A model generated the notes under the pieces. That model worked only from the letters and a program-made list of their open reading frames with translations, was not told the DNA's origin and searched no databases. Of a stretch of DNA of 22,564 nt, positions 13,225 through 22,564 are shown piece after piece. How positions within the stretch are numbered: the first letter of the stretch is position 1; each line of letters starts with the position of its first letter. Source of the stretch: a virus. The position numbers were made by a program, and so were the translations under genes. The stretch covers positions 1-22,564 of the IMG/VR virus record IMGVR_UViG_3300034092_002209; one strand, written 5' to 3'.

Positions 13225-16200
13225 TTAATTGGTTGTTGCTTGACCAAATGAACCAAATTTTGAGTTACTTGTTGCTAATAATTGATTTGCACGTTGACCA
13301 TCAATATACACAGCAATTTGACCAGATGCCATCATAGAAGTCAATTTATCAAGTTTTTCTGCTAAAACTCTATTGGAATTTACAATTGTATTGATCAATA
13401 AATCATCAGTTTTTACACTTGTTTTTGATTCAGTCGCAGTTTTTGATGGAGTTTCTTCTGATGTTCCGACTATTCTACCAACAAAACTAAAAGTTTTTCC
13501 TATTGTATCAGATATAAATGAACCAATACCTTTCATTTTTTCCCATACTTTTTCAAGAGCACCAATAATAAAAGTAAACGCTCCACTGAATGTGTCTTTG
13601 AGAAAAGCGCCCACTTCAGATACAGCGGACTTTATTAGTTCAAATCCTTTTTTAAATGGATACGTAATCAAATCAAATATTATATCTACAACTGATTTAA
13701 AAGCGTCAACAAATGTTGTTTTTAAAATATTTATAATCTCTGGTATAATTTGAGCGGCTTTTTTAAATGGATATGTAATTACATCAAATAACATATCTAC
13801 TACAGATTCTATACCATCGACGATTGCTAAACCAATTTTTGATGGAGATTTACCGCCTAATAGATCCATTATCCAATTATATGCCTTTTCAAATGGAGAT
13901 TTGAGTATAGTATATATATCATTTACTACTGCCTTTATACCTTTCAAAATATCTTCTCCCCAAACGGCTTTTATAATCCATTCGCCAATATCAATAAATG
14001 GTTGTATTAATGTATCATACAAAGCACCATAAAGCCCAACAACAGATGCAAATATTTTTTGTCCAATGTTTAAATTTGGATCATTAAATATTACACTAAT
14101 TCTTTTCCACGCATTATATATAAATTCTATAGCCATTATTATTTCACCCAAAATAGGAACAGCTGTTAAACCAAGTTTTCCGATTTTTAAAAAGCCTAGT
14201 AAAGGTTTTAAAAATTTAGATCCTTCTCCAACAGATTTAAACGCACCTATTATCGGTTTAATTGCGTTTGTAATAGGTGAAAATATTGATGATACAAATG
14301 TTTTAAAAATATTAAATTTGGATATTACAAAATCAATTGGCACCGCTATTCCGGCCAAAACTTTTCCTATTTTTGAAAAAATCCCACCAACCGCATTTCC
14401 AGCCGATAAAAAAGACTGTGCAAAATTTGTACCTAACGATCTGACATACTGAAAGTTTCCTATAAAAAGTTTTGTTTTTTCTATCAACATTGTTATCGGC
14501 AATAACAAATTTTTAATCCACCCAACCTCTCCTAACTTAGATAGATATCCACTTGCAACTCTAAGTGGAAACAATAAAGATTCACGAAGCGCGGTACCAA
14601 CCGATGTAAACATCAATTTTATTCGTATTAAAGGGCCTATTAATTCTTCAGGATTAAACTTTTCAAAAATATATACAATGCCATCCATCGTTTTAGAAAT
14701 AAATTCTAAAACAGGTAACATTAATTTTTGCAACGCATCATTTATTTTATTTTGTACTATAGCCAATCTTTCTTGGTTCGCTTTAGTTTTCAAATCTTGT
14801 TCAAATTTTTGTTGAGCTAATTTACTATTAGTTTTCAATAAATTTTGTTCTTTTAATCTTTCTTGTGCTATTTTTCTAACAACAGGATCCTGTGAGTTCA
14901 GTGCGTCTTTTATACGAGTTTCTGCCTCCAACATATCTTGCAATTCTTTTACAGACTTACCAGCAGCTTTTGCAAATGCTTCTTGTGCAATTGGATTTAA
15001 CTGATTAAACTTAATTTTCTTAGCTTGATCCAATATTAGTTTATTTGCTTCAACAACTTTGCCTTGGAATGCCAATCTACGAGCTTCATTGAAGTTAATA
15101 TTTTTACCAATCAAAGCACTAGCTTTTAATTCCGCTTGAATACTACTTTCAAAATCAAGTAGACCTTTTGTGGTTCTTGACATATTATCAAGAGTAGTAC
15201 CCATTTGTCTAGCTTGAGCTGCGGCTCTAACCATTTCATCGGCGTTTTTACCAGCATACATTCTAGCTTCTTCAGATGCATTTGCAACGTCGGCCATCAC
15301 ATCGTCCAATCCAACACCATAAGCTTTTGCTGAAGCGCCAGCTAAACCCAACATATTTTTGTTAGCAACTGCGCTCTGACCTTTAATTCCACCGATGGTT
15401 TTAAGAAAACCAACACTTCTATCAGATGTAATTCCCATTTGTTTGGATAACAGTGTTATATCACTAACCAATGATGTATTTGCAATATCAATCGAACTAA
15501 ACGCTGATCCTATAGATTTTGATGTTGATGCCACATCTTTAGCCGCAACTCCAAATTTAGCAAGATCCGTACTTATATTTTTAATATTTTTCTCTATATA
15601 TTCGGCATCTTGTCTAAATAACGCAAATGTTTGACGAACTTCGGTCGCAGTTTTATCAATTTCTTTGAATCTTTCATATGTTTGTTTTAACAGGCTACTA
15701 AAAGACGCTGGAATTTTTAATTCACTCATTATATCACCAATTAACTTTGAAATCTTTGAAGTAGCAACCAAATCAATATTAACATCTGATATGTTTTTTC
15801 GTTCTTGAACTAATTGACCATTGACCAATTTAAATTGTTCCTCGATTTTTTTTCCTTGATTTTTTTGTTTTTCATATACTTTAAGATTACCAGCTAAAGC
15901 AATATTTTGTAACAAGAAAGAATCTATCATCTCCTTCGCTTTTTTGTGTTGGTCACGTGATAAAGCACCAGAATTTATAGCTATTTCTAAAGCTTCTGTT
16001 TGAGCGCTTAAAATTTTCTGTTGAAGTTGTAATCGATCATTTTCTAAATTAAAAGATGCCTCGTCATATACAATCGACGCTTTTTTTTGCTCACTTATAG
16101 TAGCAGATATATCAGATTGAAGATTTGAAAGAACATTTAATCGACGTTGGTTTTTTTCTTGTTCACTTAAATTTTTACTTATATCTGCCCAATCTGATTT

Positions 16201-16284
16201 AAGCTTTTCAGTTATATTACTGGCAGCACCTAAATTTTTAAGTGCATTGGCCAGAGCGGTTGGATCAAATGGTTGTGCTGCCAT
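13225..16284 (-). CDS. Tail tape measure protein
   Basis: This 1019-residue, almost fully helical protein has the composition and place of a tape measure, the ruler that sets tail length inside the tube. Residues 40-160 are charged coiled coil. Residues 300-480 form a soluble domain (GLAGASAKAYGVGLDDVMAD, ARRLAFQGKVVEANKLILDQ) common in phage tape measures. Residues 530-960 alternate hydrophobic stretches (about 645 VLAGIAVPIDFVISKF, about 708 AVPILGEIIMAIEF) with amphipathic repeats containing ITYPFKK (about 838 and 875). T4 gp29 has 590 residues. At about 0.15 nm per residue this protein predicts a tail of roughly 150 nm. It follows the gp26-type chaperone gene and its frameshift extension, as tape measure genes do in most tailed phages. 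TATTTAT lies seven bases before the ATG. No Shine-Dalgarno is seen. Confidence 0.88.
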   Translation of the reverse strand: MAAQPFDPTALANALKNLGAASNITEKLKSDWADISKNLSEQEKNQRRLNVLSNLQSDISATISEQKKASIVYDEASFNLENDRLQLQQKILSAQTEALEIAINSGALSRDQHKKAKEMIDSFLLQNIALAGNLKVYEKQKNQGKKIEEQFKLVNGQLVQERKNISDVNIDLVATSKISKLIGDIMSELKIPASFSSLLKQTYERFKEIDKTATEVRQTFALFRQDAEYIEKNIKNISTDLAKFGVAAKDVASTSKSIGSAFSSIDIANTSLVSDITLLSKQMGITSDRSVGFLKTIGGIKGQSAVANKNMLGLAGASAKAYGVGLDDVMADVANASEEARMYAGKNADEMVRAAAQARQMGTTLDNMSRTTKGLLDFESSIQAELKASALIGKNINFNEARRLAFQGKVVEANKLILDQAKKIKFNQLNPIAQEAFAKAAGKSVKELQDMLEAETRIKDALNSQDPVVRKIAQERLKEQNLLKTNSKLAQQKFEQDLKTKANQERLAIVQNKINDALQKLMLPVLEFISKTMDGIVYIFEKFNPEELIGPLIRIKLMFTSVGTALRESLLFPLRVASGYLSKLGEVGWIKNLLLPITMLIEKTKLFIGNFQYVRSLGTNFAQSFLSAGNAVGGIFSKIGKVLAGIAVPIDFVISKFNIFKTFVSSIFSPITNAIKPIIGAFKSVGEGSKFLKPLLGFLKIGKLGLTAVPILGEIIMAIEFIYNAWKRISVIFNDPNLNIGQKIFASVVGLYGALYDTLIQPFIDIGEWIIKAVWGEDILKGIKAVVNDIYTILKSPFEKAYNWIMDLLGGKSPSKIGLAIVDGIESVVDMLFDVITYPFKKAAQIIPEIINILKTTFVDAFKSVVDIIFDLITYPFKKGFELIKSAVSEVGAFLKDTFSGAFTFIIGALEKVWEKMKGIGSFISDTIGKTFSFVGRIVGTSEETPSKTATESKTSVKTDDLLINTIVNSNRVLAEKLDKLTSMMASGQIAVYIDGQRANQLLATSNSKFGSFGQATTN
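13648..13809 (-). repeat. Direct repeat within the tape measure gene, 111-base period
   Basis: About 50 bases starting at 13648 recur at 13759, nearly identical and offset by 111 bases (37 codons). Both copies encode the segment (D)xITYPFKK with flanking helix. Related but weaker copies (IQPFIDIGEWIIKAVWG, LKSPFEKAYNWIMDLLG) lie further towards the N-terminus. The pair looks like internal duplication that lengthened the tape. Confidence 0.7.
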
Positions 16285-16319
16285 ATAATATATAAATATG
16301 ACAACTATATTATTTTACA

Positions 16320-16532
16320 CTAAAAAGGCTTATCTACTTTACCCGACTTTTTAGCAGGTTCTTTGTAACTATCACTTTCTTTGTTCTTTATATTTGCTAA
16401 TTGAGCATAGTAAAAATTACGCAAAAATACCGGTAAATTATACGCAATTTGTACATTTACCGCTCCTTGCGAGAAATAACTCAATTCAAATATTTGACCG
16501 TGAACTTGTAACTTATATTCAGGACTCAGGCC
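16320..16532 (-). CDS. Frameshift-expressed C-terminal extension of the gp26-like tail assembly chaperone (70 codons)
   Basis: This reading frame overlaps the last codons of the gp26-like gene in the +1 (equivalently -2) frame and has no ATG or GTG. It is open from a TGA at 16548-16550 down to the TAG at 16320. From the shift point it encodes GLSPEYKLQVHGQIFELSYF, then SQGAVNVQIAYNLPVFLRNF and YYAQLANIKNKE, closing on a Lys-rich tail. The motif NLPVFLRNFYY fits the (M/L)P-x-x-LR-x-FY pattern I associate with the second domain of tail assembly chaperones. The codons read like a real protein. A fusion product would have about 340 residues. It ends 35 bases before the tape measure start, exactly where the T part of G/GT chaperones lies. 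Independent initiation from a TTG or CTG is a less likely alternative. Confidence 0.72.
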   Translation of the reverse strand, partial: GLSPEYKLQVHGQIFELSYFSQGAVNVQIAYNLPVFLRNFYYAQLANIKNKESDSYKEPAKKSGKVDKPF

Positions 16533-17343
16533 AAAAAAACTGTACCGTCATCGGTACATCCATCCTTTCCACCTCACCACAGTGTTCACATACAAAGTCA
16601 AATCCCATATCCAATTCAGGCGCAATTGTTTTAATATAAGCTCTTAGTGCCATACTGTCTTTTGACAACAACTCATTGTCAACAAATTTATTAATAGCTG
16701 CAATATCTGGTTTTCCATCTATACTTACAATCAGCTTTTTAAGTCTGGTAGTTACTTCTGTGCTGGCTTGTTTTTTGATCTTGGTCATCGCTTTGATATC
16801 ACGATCAATGCTTTCTTGATCACCAGATGTAACGAGCTTAAATATTATTCTACGTTTACAATATGGAAACTCAAATTCAAATTCATTACTACCCTTCTGA
16901 AACTTATTGAAGTCCACTTCTTTTTCATTTAATGTACTTAAATCAATATATGTTTTGTTTTCGGTATTACATTTTTTGCACTCAATTTTAACAGGTCCGT
17001 ATTTGTCACCATATGCCAAACGTCTAGCAGCAACAAACAGTGCATTTTTGTCTACCATCAACAAATCTTGTGTTCTTACGCCGGGTGTAACAATTAAGGA
17101 TTCAAGCAATTTATCCAATACGGTACCGTTTTTGATGAAGTTTTCATTGGTTAAAATGTCTTCTTCTCTAGCAGTCATCATCTTTAATTCCACACTACCT
17201 TTGCTTAGTGGACTAGACTCATCATAGAAATATCCTTTAGATGGCAATTCTATTGTTTCCGCAGGATAACTTGTATGTGCAGCTGTTGTTGATGCAGTTG
17301 AATGCTGTTGCTTTAATTTTTGAATTATAATTTCGTCACTCAT
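16519..17343 (-). CDS. gp26: gp26-type baseplate protein / tail assembly chaperone (274 residues)
   Basis: The protein matches the T4 gp26 baseplate family. AETIELPSKGYFYDE (28-42) is the hallmark N-terminal motif. VELKMMTAREEDILTN (51-66) and LLESLIVTPGVRTQDLLMVD (79-98) follow. Paired cysteines C122-x2-C125 and C252-x2-C255 probably bind one zinc, and the end is PMTVQFFWPES. It stands directly before the tape measure gene, the position of the tail assembly chaperone, which coats the tape measure during tube growth. T4 gp26 has 208 residues, so an N-terminal extension of about 25 Ser/Thr/Ala/His-rich residues is present. Its last codons contain a hairpin and a U7 run that appear to let some ribosomes or polymerases shift frame to make a longer product. 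No Shine-Dalgarno precedes the ATG. Cotranscription with the tape measure gene is very likely. Confidence 0.86.
   Translation of the reverse strand: MSDEIIIQKLKQQHSTASTTAAHTSYPAETIELPSKGYFYDESSPLSKGSVELKMMTAREEDILTNENFIKNGTVLDKLLESLIVTPGVRTQDLLMVDKNALFVAARRLAYGDKYGPVKIECKKCNTENKTYIDLSTLNEKEVDFNKFQKGSNEFEFEFPYCKRRIIFKLVTSGDQESIDRDIKAMTKIKKQASTEVTTRLKKLIVSIDGKPDIAAINKFVDNELLSKDSMALRAYIKTIAPELDMGFDFVCEHCGEVERMDVPMTVQFFWPES
16533..16558 (-). promoter_or_regulatory. Recoding site: hairpin followed by a U7 slippery run
   Basis: In the minus-strand message, UGUACCG and CGGUACA form a perfect 7-bp stem with an AUGA loop (16541-16558). One G follows, then seven uridines (16539-16533), then GGCC. Phe tRNA in the P site can re-pair perfectly after a +1 or -2 shift along U7, and both shifts open the downstream 70-codon frame. 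The -1 frame meets a UGA two codons later. The hairpin plus U7 also looks like an intrinsic terminator, a known trigger for RNA polymerase slippage. Confidence 0.7.
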
Positions 17344-17392
17344 AACTTTATAACAATATATAGAACATTATATAACTTTTTAATTATTATAT

Positions 17393-18289
17393 TTAACTTG
17401 GCGTTGATTGTACTGCAACTTTTTTACTATCCACCGAAGCCTTCTTTATTTTTACATTTGCCTCAGCTGCAGCTTTTTCCTCTGGAGTCGTAGCCGATGA
17501 TAAATTATCATTTGCTTTTTTTAAATCTTCTTCAGCACCGTCGAGTTCCGCATTTCGAAGATCCTTTTCAGCTGCATTTCTTTTTTCTTTGGCAGAATTT
17601 ATTTTAGCTTCGTCTTCTTTTAAGATACCCACAATCAATTTCTTTAATAACTTCTTTTGCTTTTCAGTTAATTTACCGGCGTTGTTACCCAATCTATTGT
17701 TTAGTATATTATGAACATTTGTATTGTAATTACCAAACAAATCAGTAATAAAAGCCTTTTGTTGTTCTGGGGTTAATGTAGCATATTGAGATCTCAATTG
17801 ACTTGCACTTCTAGCTGGTAACCCTAGTACTGTAAAATCTGTAGTTGGCACTGTTATCAAGTATCCGTGTTTTATGGCTGGGTCCAATTTAGATTGATTT
17901 TTTGGCAATGGTTGCAAATAGGAAGGAGACCCATCTTTTTTTACAAAGTTTTTGAATCGTGGATCTTCAGCCATATCCTTTTCACTAACTGCAAAAATAA
18001 TACTATCACGTTCTATATTGATCGGTATTTGACCAGCTACACTTTGCAAGTTGTAGTTGTTTTTGACATTTAGTATTTTGTTGGCCGGTATGCCAGTTGC
18101 CATCATCATTTCTTTTTTCTCGTCAAATGAAAAAGGTGACTTTGGCAATTCAACTACTCCGGTGGTTGTTATATATACGTCGTTGCCACCAAATTTGGTG
18201 CTTAAATAGTTATACACACCCTTGTGACCTGCGTGAAAAGGATGAAATCTACCAGGATAAATGACGAATACTTTCTTGCCCATTTGCAT
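17393..18289 (-). CDS. Cytidylyltransferase-fold nucleotidyltransferase (NMNAT-like) with C-terminal coiled coil
   Basis: The first 170 residues are a HIGH-family nucleotidyltransferase of the NMN adenylyl-/cytidylyltransferase type. FVIYPGRFHPFHAGHKGVYN (8-27) contains the HxxH-type ATP-binding motif (H16, H19, H22). ITTTG (40-44), an FAVSEKDM strand (99-106) and ARSASQLRSQYA (159-170) complete the fold, the last replacing the ISSTxIR signature. Enzymes of this type transfer a nucleotide from ATP or CTP to a phosphorylated substrate such as nicotinamide mononucleotide. The substrate here cannot be told. Residues 205-298 are an Ala/Lys/Glu-rich coiled coil of unclear role, unusual for the enzyme family. 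The first ATG is preferred over a second four bases downstream of it, because TATTTAT lies six bases before it. The gene lies between tail tube and chaperone genes, just after a terminator hairpin. Possible roles are NAD metabolism or a virion-associated enzyme. Confidence 0.8.
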   Translation of the reverse strand: MQMGKKVFVIYPGRFHPFHAGHKGVYNYLSTKFGGNDVYITTTGVVELPKSPFSFDEKKEMMMATGIPANKILNVKNNYNLQSVAGQIPINIERDSIIFAVSEKDMAEDPRFKNFVKKDGSPSYLQPLPKNQSKLDPAIKHGYLITVPTTDFTVLGLPARSASQLRSQYATLTPEQQKAFITDLFGNYNTNVHNILNNRLGNNAGKLTEKQKKLLKKLIVGILKEDEAKINSAKEKRNAAEKDLRNAELDGAEEDLKKANDNLSSATTPEEKAAAEANVKIKKASVDSKKVAVQSTPS

Positions 18290-18350: not shown

Positions 18351-18842
18351 TTAATATTGAAGAATTGCGTAATCGTATGCAATTGATAGGCTGATCATTT
18401 GAGCAGCACCATCATCGCTCCAATCCATTTCTTGGAAATCGGCGCTTACGATAAATGAACCTACCAACTTCCATTCTTCTACTTTGTCACCTACTGGACC
18501 CAAGACGTTAATTGTTAACTCCTTCTTATAAAAGTCTTGGTAACCATCACGACCAGTAACTGATTCGTGGTGTAAACGTACCCATTCCATTACTGCTTGA
18601 GCACCGGATGGCACAATTGGATCATAAAGTTCCATACTGATTTCATCCCATACACTCTTACCTTTATAGTAAGATTTTGTATTGATGTGATCAAGTTCCT
18701 TCTTGGCTTGTGTTAGTTTAGGACGATTGACCTTTTTGATGATGAATGATGGAATACCATCAACATAAAGAATAAAACGATTCTTTACTTTTGGTTCGAA
18801 TGCCGTAGCGAATATTTCACTTGGATTTAGTAGTTCTGCCAT
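18351..18842 (-). CDS. gp19: Tail tube protein, gp19-like
   Basis: The 163-residue protein is the same length as T4 gp19, which polymerises into the hexameric tail tube. Family features include the N-terminal NPSEIFATAFEPKVKNRFIL (6-25), YVDGIPSFIIKKVNRPKL (26-43), a central SYYKGKSVWDEISMELYDPI (57-76) and the strand-rich end VEEWKLVGSFIVSADFQEMD (121-140) followed by ISLSIAYDYAIL. The gene is set apart: a plus-strand homing endonuclease lies upstream and a strong hairpin terminator downstream, fitting abundant, separately terminated expression. AAAGG lies 11 bases before the ATG, a weak Shine-Dalgarno, and a TATTTAT is present 22 bases upstream. In T4 the sheath gene gp18 precedes gp19. No sheath gene is found here, so contractility cannot be read from this window. 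Confidence 0.93.
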   Translation of the reverse strand: MAELLNPSEIFATAFEPKVKNRFILYVDGIPSFIIKKVNRPKLTQAKKELDHINTKSYYKGKSVWDEISMELYDPIVPSGAQAVMEWVRLHHESVTGRDGYQDFYKKELTINVLGPVGDKVEEWKLVGSFIVSADFQEMDWSDDGAAQMISLSIAYDYAILQY

Positions 18843-18945: not shown

Positions 18946-20451
18946 ATGAGCAGACCTAAAAATAATCCGGATTTTATTGAAAAGGTATGTGGAACTTGTA
19001 ATATAAAGTATAAAATTTCCTTTTACAAGCGAAATACATCAATATACTGTAGCAAACAGTGTTCAAATGCAAACGTTAAAGTTTTAAATAAAATACGTGA
19101 ATCACAGAAAAAAACGTATTCGCAAAAATATAATGGAATGCATCCAATGCAAACCGAAGAAACAAAGAAAAATTTTAAAAATGCTATTTTGGATAAATAC
19201 GGAGTTGAATCGTATAGTAAATTAGTTGTATATAAACAACGTGTTAAAAACACTAAATTTAAAAAATATGGAGATGAAAATTATAACAATATTGAAAAAA
19301 TAAAATCCACTTGTCTTACAAAATACGGAGTTGATAATGCTTTAAAAGATGTTACCATAAGGAAAAATATTGCGGATAAATCTAAAATAGAACGTTTTGG
19401 TTTTATTAAAAATTACTGTGAGGTTAGAAATATATCTCCTTTATTTTCTGAATCTGAGTACAATGGTTATTTATATAAAAATAAATATAAATTTTTGTGT
19501 ACAAAGTGTAACAAGGTATTTGAAACGGACGTTTATAAATTAAATCATATATTTTGTAGTTACTGTAATCCATTAGACAAAGATACGCTTGAAAATGAAA
19601 TATATCACTTTATCAAATCTATTGTGCAAGATGATATTATTGTAAAGAGAAAAGATAGAACTGTACTTAACGGTAAAGAGTTAGATATTTATGTACCGTC
19701 TAAAAATATAGCTATTGAACTAAATGGATTGTATTGGCACAGTGAAAACGGTAACGGTATTAAAAAACATTATCATTTAAATAAAAGTCGCAGTTGTAAT
19801 TCAAAAGGCATACGACTAGTACACATATTTGAAAATGAATGGATTCATAAAAAAGAAATTGTTAAATCTGTACTTTGTTATTTGTTTAAAACTAATATTA
19901 ACAAAATTTACGCGCGTGAATGCGATGTTCGGTTGGTTTGCGAAGATGAAAAAAACACGTTTTTAGAACACAATCACTTACAAGGAAAAGATAAATCTTC
20001 TATAAAATACGGATTGTATTATAAGAATGAATTGGTCTCTTTGATGACATTTGTTAAGTCTAGATTTGACAAAAAAATACAATACGAAATGTATCGCTAT
20101 TGCAATAAACTAAACACATCTGTTATAGGATCCGCATCAAAATTATTTAAAAGATTTATCCACGATCATACACCTAAGAGCATTATATCTTATAATGACA
20201 AAAGGTATTTTGATGGCATAGTATACCAAAATTTAGGTTTCAATTTTATCGAAAATACTACACCTAACTATTGGTATATAAGTCCAGATTATAAAATATT
20301 ATTTAATCGAATGTCATTTCAAAAACATAAATTAAATAAGATATTGAATAAGTTTGAGTCAAATTTAACAGAATGGAAAAATATGCAGTTAAATGGTTAT
20401 GATCGTATCTGGGATTGTGGAAACGGAAAATGGGTATGGACTTCCGTGTAA
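18946..20451 (+). CDS. Free-standing homing endonuclease with VSR-like nuclease domain (501 residues)
   Basis: This is the only plus-strand gene. The modules in order are: a Cys4 zinc finger (C15-x2-C18, C35-x3-C39); about four short helical repeats each carrying KYGV or a variant (61, 84, 107, 126), probably DNA-binding; a second zinc finger (C185-x2-C188, C204-x2-C207); a VSR-type nuclease core, LDIYVPSKNIAIELNGLYWH (246-265), HYHLNK (275-280) and GIRLVHIFENEW (288-299), with D247, E258, H265 and H293 as likely active-site residues; and a C-terminal part (325-465) common in phage mobile endonucleases. Such enzymes cut alleles lacking them and are copied in by repair. Both neighbours appear intact, so it occupies an intergenic site. 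Shine-Dalgarno AAAGG lies six bases before the ATG. Its stop is only five bases from that of the convergent phosphatase-transferase gene, with no terminator between. Confidence 0.87.
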   Translation: MSRPKNNPDFIEKVCGTCNIKYKISFYKRNTSIYCSKQCSNANVKVLNKIRESQKKTYSQKYNGMHPMQTEETKKNFKNAILDKYGVESYSKLVVYKQRVKNTKFKKYGDENYNNIEKIKSTCLTKYGVDNALKDVTIRKNIADKSKIERFGFIKNYCEVRNISPLFSESEYNGYLYKNKYKFLCTKCNKVFETDVYKLNHIFCSYCNPLDKDTLENEIYHFIKSIVQDDIIVKRKDRTVLNGKELDIYVPSKNIAIELNGLYWHSENGNGIKKHYHLNKSRSCNSKGIRLVHIFENEWIHKKEIVKSVLCYLFKTNINKIYARECDVRLVCEDEKNTFLEHNHLQGKDKSSIKYGLYYKNELVSLMTFVKSRFDKKIQYEMYRYCNKLNTSVIGSASKLFKRFIHDHTPKSIISYNDKRYFDGIVYQNLGFNFIENTTPNYWYISPDYKILFNRMSFQKHKLNKILNKFESNLTEWKNMQLNGYDRIWDCGNGKWVWTSV

Positions 20452-21774: not shown

Positions 21775-22564
21775 TTAATTTGAAAATAATACTCTAACAT
21801 AATCGCAATCGTATAATACGTTATCAGAACCAGGCGTAGAAATTCTACAACTACCAGCTAATTGTGCTGTAGGTCTTCTTGGTACTGCAATAAACATATT
21901 ATTTATAGATTGACCGGGATTTTCATATTGATAAGTTGCTGTACCAGCTACCACATAATTTGCATCAGAAAATGCAGTGGTAAAGTTAATTGTATAATCG
22001 CCGGTACCATTATCAGTTATGGATGATACGTTATTAGACGCGTTAGATGATGGTGTGCCTGTTCCATTAAAGTGAATCCATGCTTTTATATTTGTGACAC
22101 CGCTAGTACCACTGGTACCAGTAATACCACTAGACCCAGCATTACCATTTGCGCCACTAGTGCCACTGGTACCTGGATTACCATTTGCGCCACTGGTGCC
22201 ACTCGTTCCATTGGTACCACTGCTACCCGCACCACCTGGACTGCCATTTGCGCCACTGGTGCCACTTGTTCCACTAGCGCCACTTGTTGATTTATGTACT
22301 ACGCCGGTTGTATTATCAACTGTTAAAAAGTAACCAGTTGCGTTACTTGTCAGTCCTTCCAATTTAAGTGGTAAATTTGTAGAAGATCCACTTATATGCA
22401 ATTTATTAGCAGGACTTGTTGTACCTATACCAACATTACCCGTCAAACCTTTTATAGTAACAAAAGTGGTGTAATTAGTTGCAGCGGAATCAAGACTATT
22501 AATTTTAAAATCAAAATCATTACTTGCAGCTGAATTTTGATTTGTTGTTAATCTCCATCTATCT
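21775..22564 (-). CDS. Tail fiber / receptor-binding protein with collagen-like repeats, 5' end cut by window
   Basis: The visible 262 codons are the C-terminal part of a fiber; the reading frame is open to the window edge. The order is: a beta-rich stretch (WRLTTNQNSAASNDFDFKIN), a linker with GNVGIGTTSPANKLHISGSS, about 60 residues of collagen-like Gly-X-Y (GTSGTSGANGNPG), then a globular tip beginning AWIHFNGTGTPSS and including DYTINFTTAFSDANYVVAGT, and ending CDYVRVLFSN. VGIGTTSP-K modules occur in many phage and bacterial surface fibers, and tips like this one usually carry receptor contact. A TTG at 22446 is internal and is not the start. The Gly-X-Y tract forms a trimeric rod in related proteins. 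A promoter for the next gene begins right after the stop, and I see no terminator. Confidence 0.85.
   Translation of the reverse strand, partial: DRWRLTTNQNSAASNDFDFKINSLDSAATNYTTFVTIKGLTGNVGIGTTSPANKLHISGSSTNLPLKLEGLTSNATGYFLTVDNTTGVVHKSTSGASGTSGTSGANGSPGGAGSSGTNGTSGTSGANGNPGTSGTSGANGNAGSSGITGTSGTSGVTNIKAWIHFNGTGTPSSNASNNVSSITDNGTGDYTINFTTAFSDANYVVAGTATYQYENPGQSINNMFIAVPRRPTAQLAGSCRISTPGSDNVLYDCDYVRVLFSN
22094..22290 (-). repeat. Collagen-like coding repeat in the fiber gene
   Basis: Imperfect 9- and 18-base units encode GTSGTSGANGNPG-like triplets. The block CCATTTGCGCCACT (plus strand) recurs at about 22146, 22190 and 22248. Such tracts expand and contract by slippage or recombination, changing rod length. 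Gly codons vary in the third base, so the protein repeat is under selection and not a recent simple-sequence expansion. Confidence 0.8.

Follow-up and report, generated by a model that had tools for sequence, protein, structure and literature searches.

Upstream RNA elements and a UUU-Y slip site in phage gp26-like genes suggest +1 frameshifting to a longer tail assembly chaperone

The comparison of phage tail genes offers a view of how one start codon may serve two proteins. In this study, we have explored a gp26-like gene in the virus record IMGVR_UViG_3300034092_002209 (positions 1 to 22,564, the whole stretch of 22,564 nt being called the window hereafter) and in its homologues. The gene probably gives, from a single start, a short tail assembly chaperone of 274 residues and a long one of 340 residues, the latter through a ribosomal +1 shift at UUU-U that would be stimulated by a Shine-Dalgarno (SD)-like motif and a hairpin. 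The conserved +1 frame, the UUU-Y, and a hairpin and SD-like motif beyond what the protein demands are established by sequence comparison. That frameshifting occurs, its level and frequency, and the ratio and function of the two forms are inferred, all of the evidence being comparative, without expression, mass-spectrometry or RNA data. To this extent the homologues support the original prediction, made from the letters of the window alone, that a recoding site with an upstream hairpin leads to a longer gp26-like chaperone, its expression remaining an inference.

In the window, the gp26-like gene (16519..17343, minus strand) encodes the short form of 274 aa and matches Pfam PF12322 T4_baseplate (E=1.2e-11) and phrog_150 baseplate hub (E=1.5e-13). 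Its end reads GAA AGG ATG GAT GTA CCG ATG ACG GTA CAG TTT TTT TGG CCT GAG TCC TGA, the frame-0 stop TGA being at 16519..16521. On the same strand, an SD-like stretch TGAGGTGG-AAAGGA (16563..16576) is followed by a hairpin of 7 bp with an ATGA loop (TGTACCG-ATGA-CGGTACA, 16541..16558), a single G at 16540, and the T7 run (16539-16533), then GGCCT. The run is the slip site UUU UUU U (16533..16539), with UUU in the P site and a +1 move to UUU. The +1/-2 frame entered there reads FF-GLSPEYK...KVDKPF over 70 codons plus the stop (16320..16532, stop 16320-16322), without ATG or GTG and with a TTG at 16484 (the first TTG is at codon 16), and the computed trans-frame fusion has 340 residues. Direct reading confirmed the layout first described, namely the 7-bp hairpin with loop ATGA, one G and U7 near the gene end, the frame open for 70 codons without ATG or GTG (it does contain the TTG), and its end 35 bases before the tape measure ORF, which starts at 16284. 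The conserved SD-like element upstream of the hairpin was absent from that description. In a terminator-type scan of 16200-17500 the hairpin with its T run was the sole match; as 0.6 such matches are expected by chance, this match alone is no evidence.

Homologues were drawn from five viral-contig scans, one of which contributed its best 80 of 599, and from tblastn of phage records (six taken). The resulting set holds 165 loci that include the gene end, 109 of them distinct over 150 bases around the stop, and many nearly duplicate the window; loci truncated ahead of the gene end (L048, L049, L078, L149, L183, L184) and repeat copies of the same contigs (L151-L164) were dropped before counting. 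Beyond the frame-0 stop the +1 frame is open in 162 of the 165 (153 complete, with 59-101 codons, and 9 open to the contig end), the exceptions being L054, L176 and L180, and in these 162 loci the -1 frame closes within 44 codons (median 10). Conservation sets in at the slip site in alignments of the homologues, and what follows is a conserved domain with the consensus GLTPEYR..LF.QIHEIVFHGKGGYDY.TVYNMPIWLR.FTF.... Over 17 pairs, chosen by hand and with some members common to several pairs, differences at +1 codon positions 1, 2 and 3 numbered 87, 39 and 290, i.e. 290 of 416 at third positions, and codons with a single difference were synonymous in 224 cases and non-synonymous in 65, where 20% synonymous would be expected. 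Judged by its substitutions, the extension is evolving as a protein in the +1 frame. Four +1 extensions compared with Pfam or PHROGs gave no named function (best E 0.0039), and one that was searched in phage records matched only the frameshift place of its relatives (6 records). The long form is unannotated in the Immutovirus, LIS04 and SP-15 records examined.

The slip site was counted in the 158 loci whose +1 frame extends 40 codons or more beyond the stop, a selection that omits 7 of the 165 (L054, L176 and L180, without a +1 ORF, and L024, L115, L117 and L182, where the contig ends with the frame still open). All 158 have, within the overlap, an in-frame UUU followed by U or C. The classes are TTTTTTTGG (98 loci), TTTCTTTGG (35), TTCTTTTGG (15), TTTCTATGG (4) and six others with one locus each; every one of them is compatible with tRNA-Phe moving +1 from UUU onto UUU or UUC, the A-site codon is mostly UGG, and no stop follows UUU in any of the 10 classes. 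U7 is present at 98 of the sites and missing at 60, and 57 sites, including the 35 of the TTTCTTTGG class, have no T run longer than 4. In that class, slipping on CUU-U as in RF2 could add to the +1 shift. The original prediction had proposed that homologues be aligned for the downstream frame, the T7 run and the stem: the open frame holds throughout almost the whole set (162/165), the T7 run does not (98/158), and the stem does so in part, since it is not universal.

The upstream elements were examined in 35 representatives that are less than 80% alike across 60 nt. Complementarity to the anti-SD peaks in 9-nt segments that begin at -33 to -27 relative to the slip; the best value is -5.8, an advantage of about 2.5 kcal/mol over synonymous recodings, against 0.6 for the next best elsewhere. 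Of the 35, 32 have a duplex at least as stable as -5 kcal/mol and 3 do not; its spacing to the slip has a median of 23.5 nt (interquartile range about 20-26 nt), and this becomes 5.5 nt when the predicted fold is looped out (30/35), the folds not always being the same hairpin. When the 27 nt before the slip were folded against synonymous recodings, the natural sequences folded better (Fisher p=3e-8, kinship uncorrected), with p<0.05 in 11 of the 35 representatives, p>0.5 in another 11, and p=0.008 in the window. The suggestion that codon choice is constrained to form the hairpin therefore holds against recodings, both in the window and across the representatives. The hairpin does not occur in every member (the folding value is zero for L053 and L097), and stems in the family are mostly of 5-7 bp. 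Along 183 nt, the lowest mean z is that of -24..0 (-1.19), and all windows ending at -6 or earlier lie between -0.4 and +0.25. On the downstream side, the two windows next to the slip have z of about -0.7 to -0.8, and -0.75 occurs once at +114; we leave these values uninterpreted because frame 0 still reaches into the windows nearest the slip. If the window slips at the second UUU, and the immuto type at the first, the stem would end 1 nt before the E-site codon.

Covariation was followed in 55 distinct sequences with x-P-x-G codons, in which the innermost varying stem pair joins two third-codon bases. This pair is formed in 42 of the 55 (shuffle mean 30.3, with 0 of 10,000 shuffles as high), and its double changes fill 15 cells, a number reached in 0 of 500 shuffles; in the same set, the number of pairs with a double change (422/500 shuffles) and the pair types (153/500) are not unusual. 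The L047 group displays four Watson-Crick combinations (ACG-GGC, ACA-GGT, ACT-GGA and ACC-GGG), L137 and L138 being unpaired there. In a tree test, both sides of the stem change on 8 branches where 4.25 are expected (p=0.02), and 7 of the 8 end paired. Among the 8 sequences of the window's own group three stem pairs show double changes; two of five covariation measures stand out (16/500 shuffles), and the other three are not unusual in this group (52, 158 and 444 of 500). None of the shuffle tests corrects for kinship. In L052, a 484-kb phage, a perfect 7-bp hairpin of other sequence stands between an SD-like AGGAGGTGA and UUU C.

The direction and the agent of the shift had been left undecided in the original prediction, between ribosomal +1, ribosomal -2 and polymerase slippage. 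The homologues favour ribosomal +1 on UUU-Y, because 57 of the 158 sites have no T run above four, and the 60 sites without U7 disfavour the other two as a common mechanism. A -2 shift of the ribosome on U7, giving FFFGL, is permitted by the window, and Mu-type -2 shifting is the precedent that had been named for it. It is nevertheless scarcely credible for the family, as 54 of the 158 sites (TTC TTT TGG, TTT CTT TGG and TTT CTA TGG) allow no standard, cognate -2 re-pairing and carry the same kind of conserved extension; at the TTC TTT TGG and TTT CTA TGG sites (19/158) +1 is possible and -2 is not. If RNA polymerase slipped instead, a nascent hairpin beside U7 would force forward realignment and yield U6 transcripts, whose ordinary translation would run into the extension. 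The terminator-like geometry of the window and the 98 U7 sites agree with this, and there is a precedent in Roseiflexus IS630, where a 6-bp hairpin with a tetraloop directly 5' of T5C5 is described, in the sections available of a large review, as causing polymerase slippage (PMC5009743). Yet some members lack a run able to realign, so that slippage on U7 cannot be the common mechanism (57/158 sites again); by our reading the 35 TTTCTTTGG sites would need an rC:dA mismatch, which the same sections call inviable for T5C5 slippage (PMC5009743); and the SD-like element would be left without a role. We thus regard polymerase slippage as improbable.

Two further readings concern the hairpin and the extension. 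The hairpin might be a functionless by-product of a conserved peptide, the shift then resting on UUU-Y and the SD-like motif alone, which does not exclude +1 shifting. The peptide I/V/T-P-x-G/T-V is indeed nearly palindromic by codon, Pro and Gly dictate the CC and GG of the stem, and p>0.5 is found in 11 of the 35 representatives. We hold this to be unlikely, without dismissing it, since the synonymous recodings retain the peptide and the excess of folding is seen even so, the covarying pair sits at two third-codon bases, and the stem persists with other peptides and registers (L052, the window, L047). It is also conceivable that no fusion exists and that the extension is a small separate protein, made from an internal start or by coupling. 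L176 and L180 have an ATG close to where gp26 terminates, and at least one ATG, GTG or TTG is found in many +1 ORFs, frequently 5' of the slip site. As a general account this is very unlikely: in 39 of 113 distinct +1 ORFs, that of the window among them, ATG, GTG and TTG are all missing through codon 10 past the slip; 69 of the 113 contain no ATG through codon 20; conservation sets in at the slip site; and in T4 gp51 the same two parts form a single chain. L176 and L180 themselves lack UUU-Y and have the extension domain behind that ATG; an independent start is likely in these two, and a separate small protein is a possible third way of making the extension.

A ribosomal +1 shift would add to gp26 a domain that T4 carries in a different protein. 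PF12322 is common to the window protein and T4 gp51 (gp51 residues 1-201), and phrog_634 corresponds to gp51 residues 147-246. In profile comparisons the trans-frame +1 products matched gp51 at E=1.6e-6 and gp26 at 8e-5, and six other T4 proteins gave at least 0.18. The +1 extension profile alone reaches gp51 only at E=0.0095, and for this reason the link rests on the whole product together with the extension of -1 relatives (E=7.9e-7). Three criteria of a G/GT-type chaperone hold: homology to known chaperones; a position between the genes for the tail tube and the tape measure protein (with a nucleotidyltransferase-like gene also intervening in the window); and, as far as sequence can tell, a conserved second frame that a slip close to the 3' end would join to the gp26-like product. 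The chaperone role itself is inferred from the homology to T4 gp26/gp51 and from the place before the tape measure gene. The model of the frame-0 protein (pLDDT 86.8) gave, as the top of 446 chains aligned, YqbN (3klu; Z 5.0, rmsd 7.8, 94 aligned), then the HK97 tail assembly chaperone (2ob9; Z 4.7, rmsd 4.1, 96 aligned), both below the level of trust and only suggestive; YqbN is presumably a protein of the same kind, a tail assembly chaperone. Foldseek found nothing in the PDB at E<=0.001 (E at least 1) and 62 matches at E<=0.001 among predicted viral structures, the best 50 of the 62 being largely gp26-type or unnamed proteins.

The two forms appear to be made differently across this family. 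T4 has been called an exception to chaperone frameshifting among long-tailed phages, in the parts available of a large review (PMC5009743), and some T4-like phages are reported to have the short and long chaperone as two genes (Vladimirov 2022, as relayed in an excerpt of PMC10885494). The long form of T4 comes from a separate gene (gp51), unlike that of the frameshifted gp26-type genes. The two reported genes are, we assume, gp26 and gp51, which agrees with the profile and domain matches. Genes of the lambda G/GT type use a -1 shift, whereas the gp26-type genes studied here would use +1 on UUU-Y, with the conserved stimulators found upstream (SD and hairpin). Thirteen further named phages had a -1 ORF in 10 cases, a +1 ORF in 2 (RM378, SP-15) and an unresolved arrangement in 1 (IME-SM1). 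An in-frame U UUU UUC/U goes with the -1 ORF in 8 of the 13 (S13, ZPAH1, nt-1, S-SM1, P-HM2, pf16, phiN3, OLIVR5); P46FS4 and D533 have the ORF without the motif. An ORF in the -1 frame is annotated as gp51 or hub assembly catalyst in S-SM1, P-HM2, phiN3 and OLIVR5, and the two -1 extensions that were searched each gave a match to phrog_634, baseplate hub assembly catalyst. In the eight -1 relatives there was no excess of an upstream hairpin (Fisher p=0.20; phiN3 alone p=0.018), and in 4 of them the strongest SD-like site begins 15-16 nt upstream and forms a weak duplex (-4.4 to -6.9 kcal/mol). The window itself was considered as a -1 X_XXY_YYZ frameshift, and this was ruled out, its extension being in the +1 frame. 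Cyanophage gp51 is annotated as an ORF of 30-60 aa starting after gp26 (L196:1504-2402, L197:1501-2381), and the sequences suggest that it is a -1 extension of gp26 at U UUU UUC. A 595-kb phage relative (L054:4600-4800) has a -1 ORF after GGT TTT TTC TTC, and its frame 0 continues well past before a stop. Taken together, the +1, -1, separate-ATG and two-gene cases suggest several routes to one and the same two-part chaperone.

Our proposal for the +1 sites would involve the following events. The anti-SD of the ribosome would hold the SD-like motif; the intervening RNA, on leaving the mRNA channel, would fold into the hairpin, which would shorten the tether and pull the mRNA toward the exit; the P-site tRNA would then land one base ahead, peptidyl-tRNA-Phe on UUU re-pairing on UUU or UUC, so that a fraction of ribosomes would shift +1 at UUU-U and add the C-terminal domain. 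The direction of the force is inferred. We put forward tentatively, being not quite half persuaded of it, that this is a natural +1 signal in which the anti-SD tail holds the mRNA at an anchor point about 23 nt upstream, and a hairpin folding downstream of this anchor, before the P site, acts as a winch that pulls the message by one base, and that within one gene family the passage from -1 (8 cases without hairpin excess, 4 of which have a weak SD-like site beginning 15-16 nt upstream) to +1 (distant SD and hairpin) went with this change of geometry.

The anchor and winch are proposed because of precedents with upstream hairpins; their combination at a frameshift site is our inference. Upstream hairpins beside the E site stimulate +1 shifting on 70S ribosomes, and a stable 12-bp GC-rich one is about 60% as effective as an SD, according to the passages available; the designed hairpin worked only without RF2 at CUUUGA, and a weakened form was much less active (PMC6321510). 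That published stem, GC-rich and of 12 bp, differs from the gp26-type stems of mostly 5-7 bp. The excerpted review speaks of an upstream stem loop in T4 gene 60 as a motor pulling mRNA (PMC5009743). In T4 genes 25 and 38, as far as the accessible text goes, a hairpin brings a distant SD near, from 27 to 11 nt and from 22 to 5 nt (PMC3014915); in these split ribosome binding sites the SD lies 22-27 nt away with a hairpin in between, a layout that the gp26-type sites share. Unlike them, where initiation takes place at an AUG, the window extension has no ATG or GTG start after the SD and hairpin. The end of T4 gene 26 (L136:7800-7900, minus strand), where gene 25 starts, carries a 7-bp hairpin (CTCAAAG-AGTT-CTTTGAG) together with an SD-like stretch ahead of gene 25; this is the place of the published split ribosome binding site, the same design used for initiation.

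The RF2 gene prfB shares with the gp26-type sites a P-site YUU able to re-pair forward (UUU-Y in 158/158) and an upstream SD, and UUU instead of CUU before UGA is recorded for 21 genomes in the portion available of one study (PMC12421855). The SD of RF2 lies 3 nt from the slip codon, in the review as excerpted (PMC5009743), unlike the median of 23.5 nt found here. RF2 also has a stop in the A site, which the gp26-type sites do not, and the published passages at hand describe no hairpin for prfB, whereas many gp26-type sites have one. Influenza PA-X is made on eukaryotic ribosomes and has no SD. Its +1 site, given as UCC_UUU_CGU in the consulted extract (PMC3498833), is similar in its UUU to UUC slip, and UUU CGU is found in L053 and L186. 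HSTV-2, an archaeal myovirus, is alike in the +1 direction, its chaperone frameshifting being rated very likely in the available part of the review (PMC5009743).

Chaperones made by frameshifting are already known, and it is the +1 design of SD, hairpin and UUUY that appears to be new. Among sources available only in part, and with most subscription journals outside the scope, no paper was found that deals with frameshifting of gp26-type genes or with a +1 signal built from an SD and a hairpin; Vladimirov et al. 2022 may mention frameshifting relatives. As many gp26-type genes have conserved frameshift signals, frameshifting looks widespread in the gp26-type family, and the two genes of T4 look like one solution among several (+1, -1, separate gene). 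Stimulation of +1 shifting by an upstream hairpin has been demonstrated with a designed hairpin, judging from the passages available (PMC6321510), and the gp26-type sites would be a natural system for it, with a distant SD in addition. They make directly testable the question of how upstream RNA pushes ribosomes forward.

The neighbouring genes of the window are in keeping with a tail gene block. Directly downstream, the tape measure protein gene (13225..16284, minus strand) matches phrog_58, tail length tape measure protein (E=1.4e-20); upstream, the gp19-like tail tube protein gene (18351..18842, minus strand) matches phrog_4542 tail tube (E=8.7e-26) and PF06841 (E=2e-5, below its cut-off). 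Between the tail tube and gp26-like genes lies the nucleotidyltransferase-like gene (17393-18289, minus strand; PF01467 E=3.7e-4), which has a long charged tail. An ORF of 501 aa (18946-20451, plus strand) stands on the opposite strand within the block and, by eye only, looks like a free-standing homing endonuclease. Near the end of the window, an ORF at 21775-22446 (minus strand), listed from a TTG, contains collagen-like GTSGTSG repeats, and its true start may lie outside the window.
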